Of a stretch of 46,871 bases of DNA, positions 4,034 through 11,058 are shown in pieces. The stretch is from positions 1-46,871 of the forward strand of contig NZ_WRPM01000077.1 in assembly GCF_009758175.1 (NCBI RefSeq), in the 5' to 3' direction. A program made the position numbers and the translations under genes. Position 1 is the stretch's first letter. Every line of letters begins with the position of its first letter. The notes under the pieces were generated by a model. The model was given only the letters and a program-made list of their open reading frames with translations. It made no database searches and had not been told where the DNA came from. This DNA comes from Nesterenkonia alkaliphila (lineage in GTDB: Bacteria; Actinomycetota; Actinomycetes; Actinomycetales; Micrococcaceae).

Positions 4034-4840
4034 TCAGGCCCTGTCCTTCTCCGTCTCCAGTGCGGCAAAGTCAGCCTCTGTCACCCCGGTGCCGGACTGG
4101 CTGCCGGTGCCGATCTCGGCCGGCGTGGAGGAACCGGACTTCAGAGCTGCCAGGCGGGCCTCGATCTCAGCCTGCTCGCCGAGGTCCTCCAGGGACTCGA
4201 ACTGGGCGTCCAGGCTGGAGGCGGCCAGTTCGTTCTGCCCGCGTACCCGGGCCTCCTCACGGCGGATCTTCTCCTCGAAGCGGCCCACCTCGGAGGTGGG
4301 GTCCATCACGTCGATGGCCTGCACTGCGTCATGGACCTGGGACTGGGCGTGGGCAGCCTTGGAACGGGCCACCAGCTCATCGCGCTTGGAGATCAGCTGC
4401 TGGCGCTTGGTCTTCATCTGCTCCAGACCGGTGCGCAGCCGCTCCACGATCTCCCGCTGGGACTGGATGGTCGGCTCCGCGCCCTTGGCCGAGCTCTCGG
4501 CGTCCAGCTGGCGCTGGATGGCCACCTTGGCCAGATTGTCGAACTTGGCAGCGTTGTCGTTATTGCCCTCGCTGCGGAACTCATCAGCTTTGCGGGAGGC
4601 GGCCAGTGCCTTCTGCCCCCACTCGCGGGCGGTGTCCAGGTCCTCCTTGTAGTCGTCCTCCATCATCCGCAGATTGCCGATGGTCTGGGCGACGGCCTCC
4701 TCGGCCTCGCGGATGTTATTGGTGAAGTCACGCACCATCTGATCCAGCATCTTCTCCGGATCCTCGGCGCGGTCCAGCATCGCGTTGACATTGGCGCGGA
4801 TCAGCTGGGACATCCGGCCGAAAATGGACTGCTTAGTCAC
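4034..4840 (-). CDS. pspA: PspA/IM30 family membrane-stress protein
   Basis: Peripheral membrane protein of the PspA/Vipp1 (ESCRT-III-like) family that supports membrane integrity. The 268-aa product is almost wholly alpha-helical and charged; the N-terminal amphipathic helix and following segment read [19 protein letters not shown] then [15 protein letters not shown], typical of the family. The start is taken as the GTG at 4840 (TKQSIFGRM), 8 nt after GGAAAGG; an upstream ATG at 4870 would add ten atypical residues. A TAGTAT hexamer at 4895-4900 (minus) may be its own -10. The gene lies 121 nt after the coiled-coil membrane protein on the same strand, so the pair may work together at the membrane. 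Confidence 0.9.
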
Positions 4841-4961
4841 TGTGATCACCTTTCCTAGGGGGACATTCAAGCGTTGAGAACGATCACCTTCCCGATACTA
4901 ACCCCTGTGCCGTGCCGGGCATCAGCCTCAGGGCGGATATTTCTTCAACGGGGAGTGAACG

Positions 4962-6494
4962 CTAGAAGAAACCACGACGACGCCGCCGGCCACCGTAGCC
5001 GAACCCGCCTCGGTAACCGAACCCACCGCCGTAGCCACGGCTATAACCACCGGTATAGCCGCCGCCGAATCCGCCGAATCCGCCGAATCCGCCACCGGTG
5101 CCGTAGCCAGTGCCGTAGCCGGTGCCCATCGTCTGCATCTGGGCGGTGGCGGCCTCACGTTCAGCGATCTGCGCGGCCTGAATGGCCAGTGTCTTGGCCT
5201 GCTGAGCCAGCTCCACCGCACGGGCGGGCTGGGAGTCTCCGATGGCCTGGGCCTCAGTGAGGCAGCGTTCGCTCTCGGCCATCCGGGTGCGGGCGGTTGA
5301 AGAGATGCCGTAGCGGCGCGAGCGCAGGAAGTCCAGGGAGGACTGCACCTGATTACGCGCTGTGAGCAGCTCATGCTGCAGCATTTCCCGGGCCCGCCGG
5401 TCCTTAGCCTGCCGGTCGCGCACGGAGTTCAGCGGAGCATCCAGCTCCCGGTGTGCCAGCTCAAGCTGCTGCAGCAGCTCCAGCGGATCGATCCGCTCGC
5501 CGGAGCTCAGCGACTGCTTGGCCCGGTTGACCGCGGTCTCAGCTGCCGCCACCGGGCCGGCAAGCTCCGGCGCCTGGCCAGCGTTCATAGTGGCTCGGGC
5601 CTGGGCTACATCCTGTTCGGTCTGGGCGATGCCCACATCCAGGTTCTTCCGGGCGCTCTTGAGCCGCTCCTCGGTCTCCTCCATCGACTCGATGAGCCGT
5701 TGGGCATCAGCAGCAGCCTGTTCCCCGGAGTGCAGGGCTACTACCGCCTGGGCGGTATCACCCGAGTGCACCGCCTGCTCCGCCTGGTTGCGGGAGGCCT
5801 CGGCGGCCTCCAGTGCTTGGGCAGACTGGGTGAGGTTGTCCCGGTACTGACGGAGGGCGTCGTCGTGGTATTTCTGCGACAGCTCCTGCACGGCGGACTC
5901 AGCCCGGGAGCGCCGGGCGGAAAGCGCGGAGAGCTGCTCGGCCAGTTTGTTCAGCGCCGGCCGGGGATCACGCTCCAGGCTGCGCAGCTCGGTGAACTGG
6001 TCCTGGTGGGACTGCAGGGTCTGATTCACCTGCTCGCAGCTGCGGATGATCCGTTTGTAGAGATCGCGGGCAGCACGTTCATCAGCGCCCTCGGAGGTGT
6101 CCACCTGCTGCTGCAGCCGAAATGACTCCCGGAGGTGCTCCTTGGCCTGCTCCAGGTCCTGCTGGAAGGGAGCCACTTTGGCATCCCCGTAGGAGGCGGA
6201 GGCGAAGAGCAGCTCCTGTTCGCTGGACTGCACGGCGTTATCCGCGGCCACCAGCAGCTCACCGGCCTGCAGCCGCAACTCCTCGCTGGACTTCTCATCC
6301 AGGGGATCACGCTGGCCCTGAGAGATCTGCTGCGGGCTGTGAACCCCTGCGATCCGGCGGCTCTGCTTCTTGCCGCCGGAGAGATAGACTGCTCCTACTC
6401 CGAGGAGCGCCAGGATCGCCGCCCCGATGATCAGCGGACCCACTAACACAGCGCCGGTTACCACGGGCAGGGCGAACAGATTCTCTGGCACCAT
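4962..6494 (-). CDS. Coiled-coil membrane protein related to TPM-domain proteins, TPM domain absent
   Basis: The 510-aa protein starts with one or two hydrophobic segments (NLFALPVVTGAVLVGPLI, then GAAILALLGVGAVYLS), a basic stop-transfer GGKKQSRR, and then about 400 residues of Ala/Gln/Glu-rich coiled coil. It ends in a low-complexity Gly/Phe/Tyr tail with GGFGGFGG repeats and a final RRRRRGFF. In related Micrococcaceae proteins, as I recall them, this architecture follows an N-terminal TPM phosphatase-like domain of about 150 residues. That domain is missing, and divergent htrA begins only 40 nt away. The ATG at 6494 is preceded by TAGACT-N7; an ATG at 6527 would add 11 residues. Upstream partner of pspA. 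Confidence 0.65.
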   Translation of the reverse strand: MVPENLFALPVVTGAVLVGPLIIGAAILALLGVGAVYLSGGKKQSRRIAGVHSPQQISQGQRDPLDEKSSEELRLQAGELLVAADNAVQSSEQELLFASASYGDAKVAPFQQDLEQAKEHLRESFRLQQQVDTSEGADERAARDLYKRIIRSCEQVNQTLQSHQDQFTELRSLERDPRPALNKLAEQLSALSARRSRAESAVQELSQKYHDDALRQYRDNLTQSAQALEAAEASRNQAEQAVHSGDTAQAVVALHSGEQAAADAQRLIESMEETEERLKSARKNLDVGIAQTEQDVAQARATMNAGQAPELAGPVAAAETAVNRAKQSLSSGERIDPLELLQQLELAHRELDAPLNSVRDRQAKDRRAREMLQHELLTARNQVQSSLDFLRSRRYGISSTARTRMAESERCLTEAQAIGDSQPARAVELAQQAKTLAIQAAQIAEREAATAQMQTMGTGYGTGYGTGGGFGGFGGFGGGYTGGYSRGYGGGFGYRGGFGYGGRRRRRGFF

Positions 6495-6501
6495 GGTCTG
6501 G

Positions 6502-6507
6502 AGTCTA
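6502..6507 (-). promoter_or_regulatory. -10 element, leaderless start of the coiled-coil protein gene
   Basis: TAGACT on the minus strand lies 7 nt before the ATG at 6494, so transcription is predicted to begin at the start codon. No ribosome site is visible between them. Confidence 0.5.
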
Positions 6508-6533
6508 TAAGAGATCAGGAGCATCACATATCG

Positions 6534-8105
6534 ATGTCACAGCCCCCATACGGTGAGAGCCCCGCAGAGCAGCCGGAGGCACCGGAGCCTGCTCAGCCTT
6601 CTGCCCAGCGGCCTATCTCCCCAGGACCCACTGCTCATATCCCGGCGCCCGGCCAGCCGATCTCACATCGGCAGTCCGAAGCGGCCTCGACCGAACTGCC
6701 CTATGGGGTCTACAGCGGCGCGCCCGCCGGGGAGCTCTCCGGCCACCAGCCCCCGCTGCAGCCCGAACCCCGGCCGCAGAGGACCAAACGCGGTATTGGA
6801 GCCGGAGCCTTCATCGTCGCGGTGCTGCTTGCCGGGCTGCTCGGCGGCGGCGCGGCCCTGGGCGGTCAGTACCTCTGGAACCAGTGGCAGAGCGAGGACC
6901 AGCAGACCATCGGCGCAGATACCAGCGGCGGGATCCAGATCAACACCCCGGAGGACGCCACTGCAGTGGCCGCGGCCGCAGACCGGGCCGCACCATCGGT
7001 GGTCACCCTGGCAGTAGGTGGAGAGTCTGGAGCGGGCTCAGGCTCCGGGATCGTGTTGGACAACGAGGGCCATGTGCTCACCAATACCCATGTGGTCACC
7101 CTGGGCGGCGCGGAGCCGGACCCGGAGATTCACGTCCAGCTCAATGACGGCCGCTCCACCACGGCCGAACTGATCGGCACCGATCCGCTCAGCGACTTGG
7201 CGGTCATCCAGCTGGCGGACACCGAGAACTTGGTCCCCGCCGAACTGGGCAGCTCCTCCGGGCTCAATGTGGGGGACCAGACCATCGCCATCGGCTCGCC
7301 GCTGCAGCTGGACGGTACGGTGACCACCGGCATCGTCTCCACCCTGGACCGCACCATCTCTGTGGCAGCCTCCGGCGCCGAGGGTGACGGCCTGGGGATT
7401 CCCGAGGACGGCCGCTACCAGGAGTTCTTCGGCCAGACCGAGGAGCCGGAGGGTGAGGATGAGGAAGACGGCCCGGAGTTCCAGCTGCCTGGTCAGGAGG
7501 GGGGCGAGAGCATCTACCTCAACGTGATCCAGACCGACGCCGCCATCAACCAGGGCAACTCCGGCGGCGCCCTGGTGGACATCAACGGTGAGGTCATCGG
7601 CGTTAACGTGGCCATCGCCACCACCGGCGGCGGGCTCATGGGCTCCGAGGGAGCCGGCTCCATCGGTGTGGGCTTCGCGATCCCGATCGACTATGCCGCC
7701 CGGGTGGCCCAGGACATCATCGATCACGGTGAGGCCTCTCACGGGGTCCTCGGCGTACATGTCGCAGAGGCGGACGCCGACCCCGCAGTCAACGACTTCC
7801 GGGTGGAGATCTTCGGCCTTGAGGGTGAGGAGCTCGAGCAGCGTCTGGAAGGTCAGGACGTGCCCCAGCCCAGCAGCCCGTTCTCCCTGGGCGGGCTGGT
7901 GGTTCACGCCGTGCCGGGCTCCCCAGCCGAGCAGGGCGGGGTTCAGGAGGGCGACATCATCCAGGAGGTGGAAGGCCGCAGAATCGACGACAGCGTCAAT
8001 CTCACCGCAATCGTGCGTGAGTACGCGGCCGGTGACACCATCACCCTGACCGTGCTGCGGGATGGGGAACAGCTGGAGATCGATGTCACTCTGGACCCGA
8101 TGTGA
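6534..8105 (+). CDS. HtrA/DegP-type serine protease, membrane anchored, one PDZ domain
   Basis: Envelope quality-control protease. The order is a Pro/Gln-rich cytoplasmic tail (1-85), one transmembrane helix (about 91-114), a trypsin-like domain and a C-terminal PDZ domain (about 450-523, GSPAEQGGVQEGDIIQ). The catalytic triad is visible as His186 (LTNTHVV), Asp221 (DPLSDLAVI) and Ser343 (QGNSGGAL). Between Asp and Ser there is an acidic insertion (about 280-326, with EGEDEEDGPE) not typical of minimal HtrA. The start ATG lies 12 nt after AGGAG; TATAAG at 6506-6511 is a weak -10 candidate. The stop overlaps the next start (GTGA), coupling it to the PIG-L gene. Which htrA paralogue it is cannot be told from sequence alone. 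Confidence 0.93.
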   Translation: MSQPPYGESPAEQPEAPEPAQPSAQRPISPGPTAHIPAPGQPISHRQSEAASTELPYGVYSGAPAGELSGHQPPLQPEPRPQRTKRGIGAGAFIVAVLLAGLLGGGAALGGQYLWNQWQSEDQQTIGADTSGGIQINTPEDATAVAAAADRAAPSVVTLAVGGESGAGSGSGIVLDNEGHVLTNTHVVTLGGAEPDPEIHVQLNDGRSTTAELIGTDPLSDLAVIQLADTENLVPAELGSSSGLNVGDQTIAIGSPLQLDGTVTTGIVSTLDRTISVAASGAEGDGLGIPEDGRYQEFFGQTEEPEGEDEEDGPEFQLPGQEGGESIYLNVIQTDAAINQGNSGGALVDINGEVIGVNVAIATTGGGLMGSEGAGSIGVGFAIPIDYAARVAQDIIDHGEASHGVLGVHVAEADADPAVNDFRVEIFGLEGEELEQRLEGQDVPQPSSPFSLGGLVVHAVPGSPAEQGGVQEGDIIQEVEGRRIDDSVNLTAIVREYAAGDTITLTVLRDGEQLEIDVTLDPM

Positions 8106-8860
8106 GCCGTCTGCACACACCTGATGAGCTGGTCGAGGAGCTGGGACTGCACACTGTGCTGGCCGTGGCCGCCCACCCCGATGACATCGACTTCGGCGCC
8201 TCCGGCACCATCGCCGCCCTGACCAGCCGCGGGGTGCAGGTGCAGCTGTGCCTGCTCACCGCCGGGGACGCCGGGGGGTTTGATGCACAGCGGAGCCCTG
8301 AGGAGACCGCGCGTCTGCGGCGCACTGAGCAGGAGGCTGCCGCAGCAGTGGTCGGCATCTCCGAGGTCACCCTGCTCCAGGAGCGTGACGGGTTCGTGGC
8401 CCCCAGCTACGAGCTCATCGGCCACCTGGTGCGGCTGATGCGCCAGCTGCGGCCCGAGGCTGTGCTGAGCTTCCACCCGGAGCGCGCCTGGGACCGGCTG
8501 CAGAAGTCCCACCCGGACCACCTGGCCACCGGTGAGGCGGTGGTGCGTGCAGCCTACCCCTATGTCGAGAACCCCTTCGCCTATCCGGAGCTCGAGGCCG
8601 AGGGTCTGAAGGCGTTCAAGATCCAGCACCTGCTGCTGATGGGAGCCCCGCAGGAGCGGGTGAACCTACGGGTGGACATCACCGGGTTCCAGGACCGCAA
8701 GCTGACCGCCCTGGATCGGCACCTCAGCCAGCACCGGGATGCTCAGCGGATGCGCGAGTTCGTCATGGAGCAGCTGCGGGCAAGTCACGGCGCCGGCGGC
8801 TATGCCGAGGAGTTCCACCACGTGCTGGTCAACGACCCGCAGACAATCTCCGGTTTTTAG
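8102..8860 (+). CDS. PIG-L (LmbE) family Zn-dependent N-deacetylase
   Basis: The 252-aa protein carries the family zinc motif AHPDD at residues 24-28 and a second metal/catalytic segment HPDH in a KSHPDHLATG context. Relatives remove acetyl groups from GlcNAc-type substrates or hydrolyse amides, for example in mycothiol metabolism (MshB, Mca). I cannot assign the substrate. The GTG start overlaps the htrA stop by 4 nt, so expression is coupled to the protease. Its stop codon overlaps the stop of the convergent sigma/anti-sigma gene by 4 nt, leaving no space for a terminator. Confidence 0.88.
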   Translation: MSRLHTPDELVEELGLHTVLAVAAHPDDIDFGASGTIAALTSRGVQVQLCLLTAGDAGGFDAQRSPEETARLRRTEQEAAAAVVGISEVTLLQERDGFVAPSYELIGHLVRLMRQLRPEAVLSFHPERAWDRLQKSHPDHLATGEAVVRAAYPYVENPFAYPELEAEGLKAFKIQHLLLMGAPQERVNLRVDITGFQDRKLTALDRHLSQHRDAQRMREFVMEQLRASHGAGGYAEEFHHVLVNDPQTISGF

Positions 8861-10533
8861 TCAAGGGGCAATTGGGCCACAGTCTCGCCCTGGGGGCGCT
8901 CCACACCGCGGACACTCTCCACTGTGACCAGCAGCGTCTGGTGGCTGGCCAGATTGCTGATGGTGACCACCTCGCCCTCCAGCTCTGCGGGGGTGAAGTT
9001 GCCCAGGGATGAAGGCTCTCCAGCGCCTGCGGGCAACAGCCACAGCTGGTAGGTCTGCTCACCCTCCAGGGCGGGCAGATCGCTGAACTGGGCGTAGCCG
9101 ACGTCCTCATTGGGGGAGAGCACGGCATCCACTGTTCCGCCCTGCTCCATCTGGTAGCCCTCGACCTGCTCGGCCTCCGGATCGGCATCAGCCAAAGCCT
9201 GGATGTCCCGGGGGATGCTGACCTGCCAGATGATCACCGCACCGATGAGTACGATGAGCAGGAAGCCGGCCACAAACATCCACCTCTTAATCACCGGTGT
9301 GCGGCGATCAGCCTCACCGGTGTGGTTGGAGATGTTCTCCACCAGGCCCACTCCGACCTCCTGCCCGCCCAGGCCGGCCAGCAGCTCGTCGAGCAGGGTG
9401 GAGGGCGGTGCCACCGGATCGGCGGCGAAGATCTCTGCCAGGGTGCGCCGGGCGGCGAGGACCCGGGTCTCCCACTGCTGCACCTCAGGCTCTGAGGCGG
9501 TGAGCGCCTTCTCATCCAGCAGAGCGCGTTCGGCGTCATCCACTGCGTCCAGCGCATACAGCTCAGCGAGCTCCACCAGCAGGCCCTTATCCAGGTCGGC
9601 GGCGATCTGGTTGGAGAAGTTCCGGTTGACCCCGCCGGAGCGCTCCACATCCTTCTTGGTCACTGCTGCGCGCAGGATCGGGTCGGGGTCGGTGTCCCGG
9701 GCCTGACGCTGGGAGTGCAGGCGAGTCATCGCATCGCGCAGCCGCGATTTCACTGAGGGGACCGCTGCCTCCACCTTCTGCGCCACCTGCTGATGGGTGG
9801 CCCCGGCCAGGTAGGTCAGGGCCAACGCCTGTGCCTGGGAGTCGGAGAGCGCCAGCAGATCCTCCAGCACCTCCTCGGGCAGACCGGCCACGCCGCCGCC
9901 CTCACTCTGGGGCACTGGGGTCAGCGGGATCGGCGTGGTGATGCCCTCACGGAACCGTTCTACAAAGATCCGGTGGGCCAGCGGGATCAGCCATTCGAGC
10001 ACCAGTTCGTACTCATTGGGCCGGTAGCTGCTGGTCCCGTCCTCCGGCTCACTGCCGGTGAACTCCTCGGTCAGCAACTGGGAGGCCTGGGTCTGCAGCC
10101 GCAGGTCCCGGGCGCGGGCATCTGCCTGGTCCCAGAGGTGGCGGTACACCGCAACAGTGGATGCGTGGGCGTCGTCGTACTCTGCGTGCATGATCAGCGA
10201 GAGCCCGTAGACAACATCCGAGGTGGCCTCGAAGAAGGCAGAGAAGGCCGCCTGGTCACCCTGGGCGGTCTGGGTGAGCAGGTCGGTGAGGGTGGGGGCG
10301 GTGCCGATCACCCTGACCTCACCGGTGGCCGGGTCCACAGCGGAGATCTCCCCGGTCTCCGGGTTGACCACCGCATCCTCCGGATACTCCTCGTAGGAGT
10401 CCTGATGCTCAGTCTCGGCATCCTCCCGGTAGTGGATCTCCTGGTACTCCTGCCCGGCTTCCGCTCCAGTGGCAGCCGCAGGAGCAGGCTCCTGCTCTGG
10501 GTTCTGCTCATCGCGGCGGGGAGTCTGGCTCAT
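8857..10533 (-). CDS. ECF sigma factor fused to RskA-type membrane anti-sigma factor
   Basis: A single uninterrupted 558-aa frame. Residues 1-78 are acidic with two PxTGE units. Residues 82-140 resemble ECF sigma region 2 (QGDQAAFSAFFEATSDVVYG, then YDDAHASTVAVYRHLWDQA, where the usual Q-E pair is V-A). Residues 220-275 are a clear region 4 helix-turn-helix: LALTYLAGATHQQVAQK then VPSVKSRLRDAM. Residues 315-390 match the N-terminal part of SigK-type anti-sigma factors (AELYALDAVDDAERALLDE). One transmembrane helix follows (418-437) and then an RskA C-terminal domain (455-550: TYQLWLLPAGAGEPSSLG). The topology puts both sigma and inhibitor domains in the cytoplasm. In most relatives these are two genes (sigK, rskA). 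A membrane-tethered sigma released by proteolysis is inference; a degenerate sigma acting only as a sensor scaffold is the alternative. No frameshift is needed to explain the fusion. Confidence 0.82.
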   Translation of the reverse strand: MSQTPRRDEQNPEQEPAPAAATGAEAGQEYQEIHYREDAETEHQDSYEEYPEDAVVNPETGEISAVDPATGEVRVIGTAPTLTDLLTQTAQGDQAAFSAFFEATSDVVYGLSLIMHAEYDDAHASTVAVYRHLWDQADARARDLRLQTQASQLLTEEFTGSEPEDGTSSYRPNEYELVLEWLIPLAHRIFVERFREGITTPIPLTPVPQSEGGGVAGLPEEVLEDLLALSDSQAQALALTYLAGATHQQVAQKVEAAVPSVKSRLRDAMTRLHSQRQARDTDPDPILRAAVTKKDVERSGGVNRNFSNQIAADLDKGLLVELAELYALDAVDDAERALLDEKALTASEPEVQQWETRVLAARRTLAEIFAADPVAPPSTLLDELLAGLGGQEVGVGLVENISNHTGEADRRTPVIKRWMFVAGFLLIVLIGAVIIWQVSIPRDIQALADADPEAEQVEGYQMEQGGTVDAVLSPNEDVGYAQFSDLPALEGEQTYQLWLLPAGAGEPSSLGNFTPAELEGEVVTISNLASHQTLLVTVESVRGVERPQGETVAQLPLD

Positions 10534-10540
10534 GCCCCCG

Positions 10541-10546
10541 AGTCTA
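10541..10546 (-). promoter_or_regulatory. -10 element, leaderless start of the sigma/anti-sigma fusion gene
   Basis: TAGACT on the minus strand is separated by 7 nt from the ATG at 10533. The same hexamer and spacing precede the gene at 6494. The sequence resembles a housekeeping -10, so self-activation by the fused sigma is not evident. Confidence 0.55.
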
Positions 10547-10581
10547 GTCAGCTCAGTCCAGCCGGGCGGCGACCAACACCC

Positions 10582-11058
10582 TCATACCGCCCCGGAGAAG
10601 CCGCGCTGGCGCCAGGCCTCGTAGACCGCGATCGAGACAGAGTTGGCCAGGTTAAGGCTGCGCCGGCCGGGCAGCATCGGGATGCGAACCAGGGCGGTAA
10701 TGCGCGGATCCTGCTTGACATGAGCATCCAGTCCGGTGGATTCACGGCCGAAGAGCAGGGTGTCCCCGGGCCGGTAGTCGATCTTGGTGTGGTGGGTGGT
10801 GCCCTCTCCGGTGAAGGCGAAGATCCGTTCCGGCTGCACTGCCGCATAGGCGGCCTGGAGGTTCTCATGCTGGGTCATCACGGCCAGATCGTGATAGTCC
10901 AGTCCGGCGCGCTTGAGCCGGGCGTCGGAGAAGTCAAAGCGGGTGGGCCCGGCGATATGCAGCTCGAATCCGGTCACGGCGGCCAGCCGGATGATATTGC
11001 CGGTGTTGCCCGGGATCTCGGGCTGGTCCAGCACGATGCGCAGCCCGGTGCCGCTCAT
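10582..11058 (-). CDS. trmL: tRNA (cytidine/uridine-2'-O-)-methyltransferase TrmL
   Basis: SPOUT-class methyltransferase that modifies the wobble base 34 of certain leucine tRNAs. The 158-aa length and knot motifs match TrmL: PEIPGNTGNIIRLAAVTG near the N-terminus, LLFGRESTGLD in the middle, and IPMLPGRRSLNLANSVSIAV with YEAWRQRGF at the C-terminus forming the trefoil knot and SAM site. The ATG overlaps the stop of the J-domain gene by 4 nt (ATGA), so it depends on that gene's transcript. It ends 48 nt before the ATG of the sigma/anti-sigma gene, which has its own promoter. Confidence 0.94.
   Translation of the reverse strand: MSGTGLRIVLDQPEIPGNTGNIIRLAAVTGFELHIAGPTRFDFSDARLKRAGLDYHDLAVMTQHENLQAAYAAVQPERIFAFTGEGTTHHTKIDYRPGDTLLFGRESTGLDAHVKQDPRITALVRIPMLPGRRSLNLANSVSIAVYEAWRQRGFSGAV

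Follow-up and report, generated by a model that had tools for sequence, protein, structure and literature searches.

Architecture of a single-chain sigma/anti-sigma protein in Nesterenkonia alkaliphila

The window analysed here is the whole 46,871-nucleotide stretch of Nesterenkonia alkaliphila contig NZ_WRPM01000077.1 (assembly GCF_009758175.1), and it carries on its minus strand, at 8857..10533, a single uninterrupted frame of 558 codons that encodes a 558-aa fused protein: a half related to the extracytoplasmic function (ECF) sigma factor SigK, which we call a pseudo-sigma, followed by an RskA-type anti-sigma half. A sequence-only reading of this DNA had described one 558-aa frame with ECF-like sigma and anti-sigma parts, one membrane helix and an RskA domain, had taken it for a fusion of SigK/RskA type, and had read the region 2 Q-E as V-A; the frame, the Pfam, NCBIfam and PDB matches and the alignment with separate SigK proteins bear out all three points.

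From its N-terminus, the protein consists of a weakly conserved extension (residues 1-78, 10300..10533), a stretch resembling regions 2.1-2.2 of sigma2 (residues 79-138, 10120..10299) in which V127-A128 (10150..10155) replace the region 2.2 Q-E, and, at the place expected for region 2.3, a stretch of about 33 residues (139-171, 10021..10119) that alignment shows to be longer than the short counterpart in separate SigK. A region 2.4-like helix (residues 172-198, 9940..10020) and sigma4 (residues 220-275, 9709..9876) follow, and a linker delimited by aligning fused with separate proteins (residues 276-301, 9631..9708) leads to the start of the RskA part. The latter comprises a class I anti-sigma domain (RskA_N, with ELAELYALDAV; residues 302-385, 9379..9630), a single hydrophobic helix read from the sequence (residues ~417-440, 9214..9285) and the extracytoplasmic RskA_C domain (residues 441-558, 8860..9213).

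Pfam RskA_N (residues 319-366, E 8.4e-9, 35.9 bits against a cut-off of 27) and RskA_C (residues 426-548, overlapping the helix at its start; E 8.8e-16, 58.8 bits against 29.4) both score above their curated cut-offs, which gives the protein the domains of an RskA-type class I anti-sigma factor. In the sigma half, Sigma70_r4_2 (residues 226-272, 1.6e-5) and Sigma70_r4 (5e-5) fall slightly under the Pfam cut-offs, and the Pfam region 2 models gave no match to the 558-aa protein. The NCBIfam SigK model PRK09646 aligns in two stretches with E 1.1e-22, its 80.6 bits lying far under the cut-off of 226; the antisigma model NF052375 reaches 87 bits against a cut-off of 100. The kinship of sigma2 and sigma4 to SigK is given by PDB entry 4nqw: its SigK chain aligns at residues 81-137 and 179-273 (single-sequence E 1.6e-11; E 2.2e-28 with a profile from 13 fused rows) and its RskA chain at residues 319-384, and these two chains are the sole PDB matches to the single sequence at E <= 1. 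We found no zinc finger among the five Pfam families matching the fused protein, no receiver domain among the Pfam families or the NCBIfam matches listed (best 25 of 27), no PADLOC family for the gene, and no match to it in the plasmid collection.

AlphaFold run 1 and run 2 (five input sequences) returned mean pLDDT values of 43.9 and 36.9, and confidence was low across both the sigma part and the anti-sigma part; RskA_C alone came out well, confidently from about residue 456. A PDB fold search with the first, low-confidence model gave nothing at E <= 0.001. Since both predictions are of low confidence over these parts, the sigma fold is drawn solely from sequence profiles.

Distribution of the fusion

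The fused gene is one frame in all 30 Nesterenkonia genomes searched, the source genome included, and fused frames also occur in five further genera, all in the same family. A sequencing error joining two genes, which the sequence-only reading had named as fatal to its claim, is thereby excluded, and an assembly or frameshift artefact is rejected. In a draw of 245 genomes from the family, 54 match at E <= 1e-20. Forty-four of these fall in six genera (g1 16, g2 1, g4 8, g14 10, g16 1, g21 8), and 43 read as fused frames in the fetched loci, the remaining one (G208) being broken by N; the other ten, from four genera (g5, g10, g25, g31), hold separate sigK and rskA genes at 10/10 loci. One g14 genome (G162, 99% complete) has no RskA_C match whatever, an apparent loss of the fused gene.

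The comparisons below use 58 fused proteins (43 from the family draw, 14 from further genus genomes, and L033) and 18 separate proteins (13 of g10, g25 and g31, one of g5 and four from other loci). G208 (locus L060) is excluded from the 58 because of the assembly N inside the gene; L011 contains a run of X, and L054 and L104 are identical in the tree region, so the 58 include one duplicate.

Outside the family, no stop-free match spanning both parts was present among the matches listed in a draw from the order (396 genomes, E <= 1e-15), nor in an overlapping draw from the class (394 genomes, E <= 1e-30). In the genomes searched for the same fusion, a check that had been proposed, it is seen in six Micrococcaceae genera. 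Three apparent fusions in other families, L089 (G434), L113 (G697) and L114 (G931), were rejected because stops lie between two separate genes: these genomes carry separate sigK-rskA-like pairs that can be aligned across both genes, with only stop codons intervening. We likewise rejected other RskA_C fusions within the family: in eight further genomes, picked from the matches listed in the family RskA_C search, RskA_C lies in frames of 404-517 aa and the SigK-like match is always in other frames (8/8). At L109 (G052), the SigK-like match is divided over two overlapping frames next to that of RskA_C, which may reflect a sequence error or a sigma gene that is broken.

Origin of the fused gene

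The fused gene lies between a trmL-like upstream neighbour (10582..11058, minus strand; SpoU_methylase above its cut-off, the TrmL models under theirs) and a downstream, convergent gene for a PIG-L family deacetylase (8102..8860, plus strand). Among the 55 fused loci tested (L001-L054 and L061, of which L031, L032 and L034 repeat L002, L006 and L005; L099-L104 were left out), trmL is present at all 55 and the PIG-L gene at 53, with no PIG-L gene within the 1.5 kb flanks of L017 and L024. Four of the five separate loci tested (L055, L056, L057 and L059) sit between the same trmL and PIG-L genes, and the g5 separate pair (L058) does not; at L055-L057 an extra frame, methyltransferase-like by eye, follows trmL. 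A tree built on the anti-sigma part, with one duplicate taken out, parts the 57 fused rows from the 18 separate ones at a single branch with support 100/99; the program flagged long branches at four outgroup rows. Because the fused rows share a side of this branch and the separate pairs share the trmL/PIG-L place, an adjacent sigK-rskA operon was probably fused in place, and once.

Divergence and constraint in the sigma half

The Q-E of region 2.2 has a role in core binding, and regions 2.2, 2.3 and 2.4 and the sigma4 helix all have functional roles in sigma factors. Passages of PMC7406223 name region 2.2 as clamp-binding. The QE is found in 0/58 fused and 18/18 separate proteins, and the same holds for the region 2.4 motif HRRA[VI]D[RK]VR (0/58 versus 18/18), which reads HRIFVERFR in the source protein. 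The sigma4 recognition-helix motif K[ST]R[LI]RD is retained in 49/58 fused proteins, as KSRLRD in the source protein, and in 18/18 separate ones; the nine losses are all nine g14 rows (0/9), and the motif is present in all examined rows of the other five genera. Polar positions on which 90% or more of the separate SigK proteins agree are kept at 20% in sigma2 (14 positions) and at 76% in sigma4 (11 positions; p 2e-4), a split that was chosen after the motif counts had been seen and that omits two gap-column positions; hydrophobic positions conserved to the same degree are kept at 66% and 52%, respectively.

These counts bear on the two branches that the sequence-only reading had left side by side: with the QE and the region 2.4 motif absent from every fused protein and a long stretch at residues 139-171, they speak for a sigma part that does not transcribe and against a tethered sigma factor that proteolysis would release. 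A working single-chain system of the latter kind would resemble IutY of Pseudomonas putida, in that cleavage would free the sigma part to direct RNA polymerase to a SigK-like regulon. The layout is that of IutY, with the sigma part, the membrane helix (as read from the sequence) and the outer anti-sigma part sharing one frame; PMC5411451 describes IutY as processed by Prc and RseP, which frees an active sigma domain, and parts of PMC8999054 expect ECF48, ECF52 and ECF53 to act likewise. The source genome also encodes an S2P-family protease, and most fused proteins retain the sigma4 motif. Set against this likeness are the loss of both the QE and the region 2.4 motif throughout and the replacement of region 2.3 by a longer stretch, and we hold an IutY-like function to be quite unlikely.

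The sigma half is under strong purifying selection and is not decaying; constraint on the protein is strongest in this half and in the anti-sigma domain. The ratio of nonsynonymous to synonymous substitution rates (dN/dS), estimated from 10 disjoint close genus pairs (replacing an earlier estimate over pairs with dS < 1 that we judged saturated), is 0.075 for residues 79-138, 0.036 for residues 172-198, 0.058 for sigma4 and 0.060 for the anti-sigma domain, and rises to 0.13 in RskA_C, 0.23 in residues 139-171 and in the helix, and 0.55 in the N-terminal extension. Within the genus, residues 172-198 are the best conserved, with a mean pairwise identity of 83% over 31 rows; the anti-sigma domain has 74%, sigma4 72%, residues 79-138 69%, RskA_C 55% and residues 1-78 22%.

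We mapped the positions at which ECF sigma factors touch class I anti-sigma domains onto the fused proteins by RpoE residue numbering. The positions are those listed in passages of PMC7406223, according to which the sigma2 contacts to the anti-sigma domain lie on the same surface that binds the beta' clamp helices. Positions mapped to F22, V26, F54, Y58, I135 and E150 are hydrophobic in 58/58 fused proteins, and S35 is counted as hydrophobic or small in all 58; the positions mapped to L151, R178 and V131 are hydrophobic in 57/58, 53/58 and 45/58, respectively. The positions mapped to Q51 and E52 are substituted in nearly all fused proteins.

Retained hydrophobic anti-sigma contacts combined with a lost QE might also be expected if the protein were a sensor or scaffold, the sigma half serving only as a plug that holds the anti-sigma domain in its fold and having no role in transcription; that g14 retains the gene despite having lost the sigma4 motif points the same way. 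A mere plug is harder to reconcile with a sigma4 motif present in all examined rows of five of the six genera, or with sigma2 and sigma4 parts that are more constrained than the outer domain, and we regard this explanation as very unlikely.

Possible partners in the genome

The source genome has one RskA_C match, the fusion itself, and 23 region-4 places (12 above the cut-off, the fusion included), among which the fusion is the closest to separate SigK proteins, the other ECF proteins being more distant. The separate sigK that had been suggested as a thing to look for was therefore not found in this genome. In the family draw (E <= 1e-5), a single RskA_C protein is present in 4/16 Nesterenkonia genomes, the other 12 having further ones; among the genomes listed for the other genera, it is single in 10/11 of g14 (the other has none), 1/1 of g16 and 8/8 of g21, with 11 genomes without a match standing outside this listing. 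In the three Nesterenkonia genomes checked (L062, L063 and L064), there is a second, separate sigma/RskA-like pair whose sigma factor has an intact QE.

These counts weigh on the idea of an anti-sigma factor that acts in trans and carries its own decoy: the pseudo-sigma half would fill the anti-sigma domain until a signal freed that domain to capture another ECF sigma factor, or else the pseudo-sigma would capture another anti-sigma factor, much as PhyR does NepR. Passages of PMC4598750 present PhyR as a case of an ECF-like domain that is a mimic rather than a sigma factor. Most anti-sigma contact positions are retained in the fused proteins, the source genome offers many region-4 places, and most Nesterenkonia genomes of the draw hold further RskA_C proteins. 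The source genome itself, however, lacks both another RskA_C protein and a closer SigK, and the listed g14, g16 and g21 genomes have no second RskA_C protein, so no such partner is common to all carriers. Partners among the other ECF sigma factors are possible; as an account of the fusion, we judge the decoy unlikely.

On another contig of the source genome (C24), a frame of 436 aa (L066, 1096-2403) resembles an ECF sigma factor extended at length at its C-terminus and may be a further one-chain regulator.

Promoter and neighbourhood of the fused gene

Upstream of the fused gene lies a conserved box, GTGTTGGT (10572..10579, minus strand), recovered by pattern searches and in the genus rows, and 25 bases past it a -10-like hexamer, TAGACT (10541..10546, minus strand), which stands 7 bases ahead of the ATG, as in a leaderless-type start. 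In 27/31 genus rows, a box GYGTYGRT precedes a -10-like TANAMT by exactly 25 bases (20-28 allowed), and in 25 of these 27 the ATG follows the hexamer by 7-8 bases. A wider box pattern at a spacing of 24-26 bases, fitted to g1, g4 and their relatives and hence descriptive only, is present in 27/31 rows of g1, 1/1 of g2, 8/8 of g4, 1/1 of g16, 4/8 of g21 (weaker) and 0/9 of g14, as compared to 1/14 of the separate pairs; mononucleotide shuffles expect at most 0.34 in any group.

The strict pattern GTGTTGGT-N24-26-TANACT occurs in 17/30 genus genomes, and 17 of its 18 places have coordinates at the fused gene (one match for the reversed control); in the source genome it has one place and the control none. 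As 16 of the 17 genomes bearing it have it at one place each, this pattern shows no sign of a regulon, which is a further point against IutY-like action.

Beyond the PIG-L gene lies a gene for an HtrA/DegP-like serine protease (6534..8105, plus strand), assigned by family match and synteny, and such a gene is found at 25/25 fused loci with long flanks (L031-L054 and L061). The source genome holds two S2P-family protease places. Positions 4034 to 8860 of the window have an envelope-stress flavour: they encode a PspA-like protein, a protein of 521 aa that matches no family, the HtrA-like protease and the PIG-L deacetylase.

A proposed function for the fused protein

Building on the fusion, its tree and synteny, the motifs lost from regions 2.2 and 2.4, the sigma4 motif and most mapped contacts that are retained, purifying selection and the promoter box, we infer that the protein mimics a sigma factor while tethered to the membrane, with the mimic docked on the protein's own anti-sigma domain and no longer a subunit of RNA polymerase, a reading to which we give about even chances. 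A SigK-RskA operon fused in place would have yielded one membrane protein, whose sigma half then stopped serving RNA polymerase. Most likely, the sigma-like module stays folded and docked intramolecularly on its own anti-sigma domain, as a built-in ligand at the inner face of the membrane. The outer RskA_C domain would sense a change or be cleaved, the adjoining HtrA-like protease and an S2P protease being candidates for the cleavage, and the module would thereby be freed or exposed. In that state it would work as a sigma mimic, either by protein contacts or by engaging DNA with its sigma4 helix-turn-helix, its own promoter being the likeliest site, and would not initiate transcription in the manner of a sigma factor. 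The parts accord with this: the module retains its core and most of the anti-sigma contacts but lacks the motifs for RNA polymerase and for the -10 element.

A more specific version, which we put forward tentatively and consider rather doubtful, is that the pseudo-sigma, off RNA polymerase, binds with sigma4 the box GYGTYGGT / GCGTGGC in its own promoter, under the control of the RskA half, which would gate it from the cell's exterior. If true, a sigma factor would have turned into an ordinary DNA-binding regulator through fusion to its own inhibitor. The sequences of g14, which lack both the box and the sigma4 motif, would fit binding of the box by sigma4.

Several observations weigh against the mimic, its docking or its DNA binding. 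AlphaFold failed over the very sigma and anti-sigma parts that are supposed to dock. The loss of the QE and of the region 2.4 motif is no proof of lost RNA polymerase binding, and region 2.4 R188 and R195 are retained in 66% and 83% of fused rows, respectively. With both domains pooled, hydrophobic positions are not significantly better kept than polar ones (55% versus 41%, p 0.19), and the mapped contacts V27, H31, P47 and R149 are altered in character or variable. As to DNA binding, four of the 31 genus rows (L013, L020, L025 and L030) lack the box yet have the sigma4 motif; the joint loss of box and motif in g14 counts as a single event, and these sequences had themselves served to shape the box pattern; finally, 10/11 of the g14 genomes listed keep the gene although the sigma4 motif is gone (0/9), so in g14 the protein must have some function besides DNA binding.

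Relation to known systems

The closest relative is the SigK/RskA pair (ECF18/ECF19; PDB 4nqw), which is alike in the sequence of both halves, in gene order and in having RskA_C outside, with four of the five sister-genus pairs tested at the same chromosomal place; the fused protein differs in being one polypeptide and in its altered QE, region 2.4 motif and region 2.3. IutY (ECF243) likewise has its ECF, membrane and outer anti-sigma parts in one chain (PMC5411451 and PMC8999054), but its sigma part is active after proteolysis, whereas the fused protein lacks the QE and the 2.4 motif and its anti-sigma half is of RskA type. According to parts of PMC8999054, ECF48, ECF52 (SCO4117) and ECF53 of Actinobacteria carry a C-terminal anti-sigma-like fusion with membrane helices, and some ECF36 proteins are also single-chain by domain structure; ECF48, ECF52 and ECF53 are described there with a zinc-finger domain, in contrast to the RskA_N/RskA_C, degenerate sigma2 and missing zinc-finger match of the protein studied here. 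PhyR of Alphaproteobacteria likewise has a module built like sigma2/sigma4 that attaches to an anti-sigma protein without being a sigma factor (excerpts of PMC4598750), but it carries a receiver domain and its partner NepR is bound in trans, while the candidate partner domain of the fused protein is in cis and membrane-anchored. Sigma/anti-sigma fusions are thus already known; an RskA-type fusion with a degenerate sigma2 appears to be a new form, no description of one having been found in the literature searched, a search that the 2021 ECF reclassification lay outside.

The locus offers a natural experiment in how a sigma/anti-sigma pair can turn into one signalling protein that is probably no sigma factor and probably signals by a novel route, while sister genera still have the separate pair at the corresponding position. 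The locus also suggests that what is annotated as anti-sigma-K in Micrococcaceae may be a protein that is neither a sigma factor nor an anti-sigma factor of the ordinary kind. That 30/30 genus genomes carry a fused RskA affects the reading of a UV response in strain Act20, which we take to be a Nesterenkonia. Passages of PMC8965627, where the genus name appears 21 times, report an RskA-named protein of this strain that drops under UV and recovers later, and read this as SigK coordinating the response; the Act20 "RskA" may be any RskA protein.

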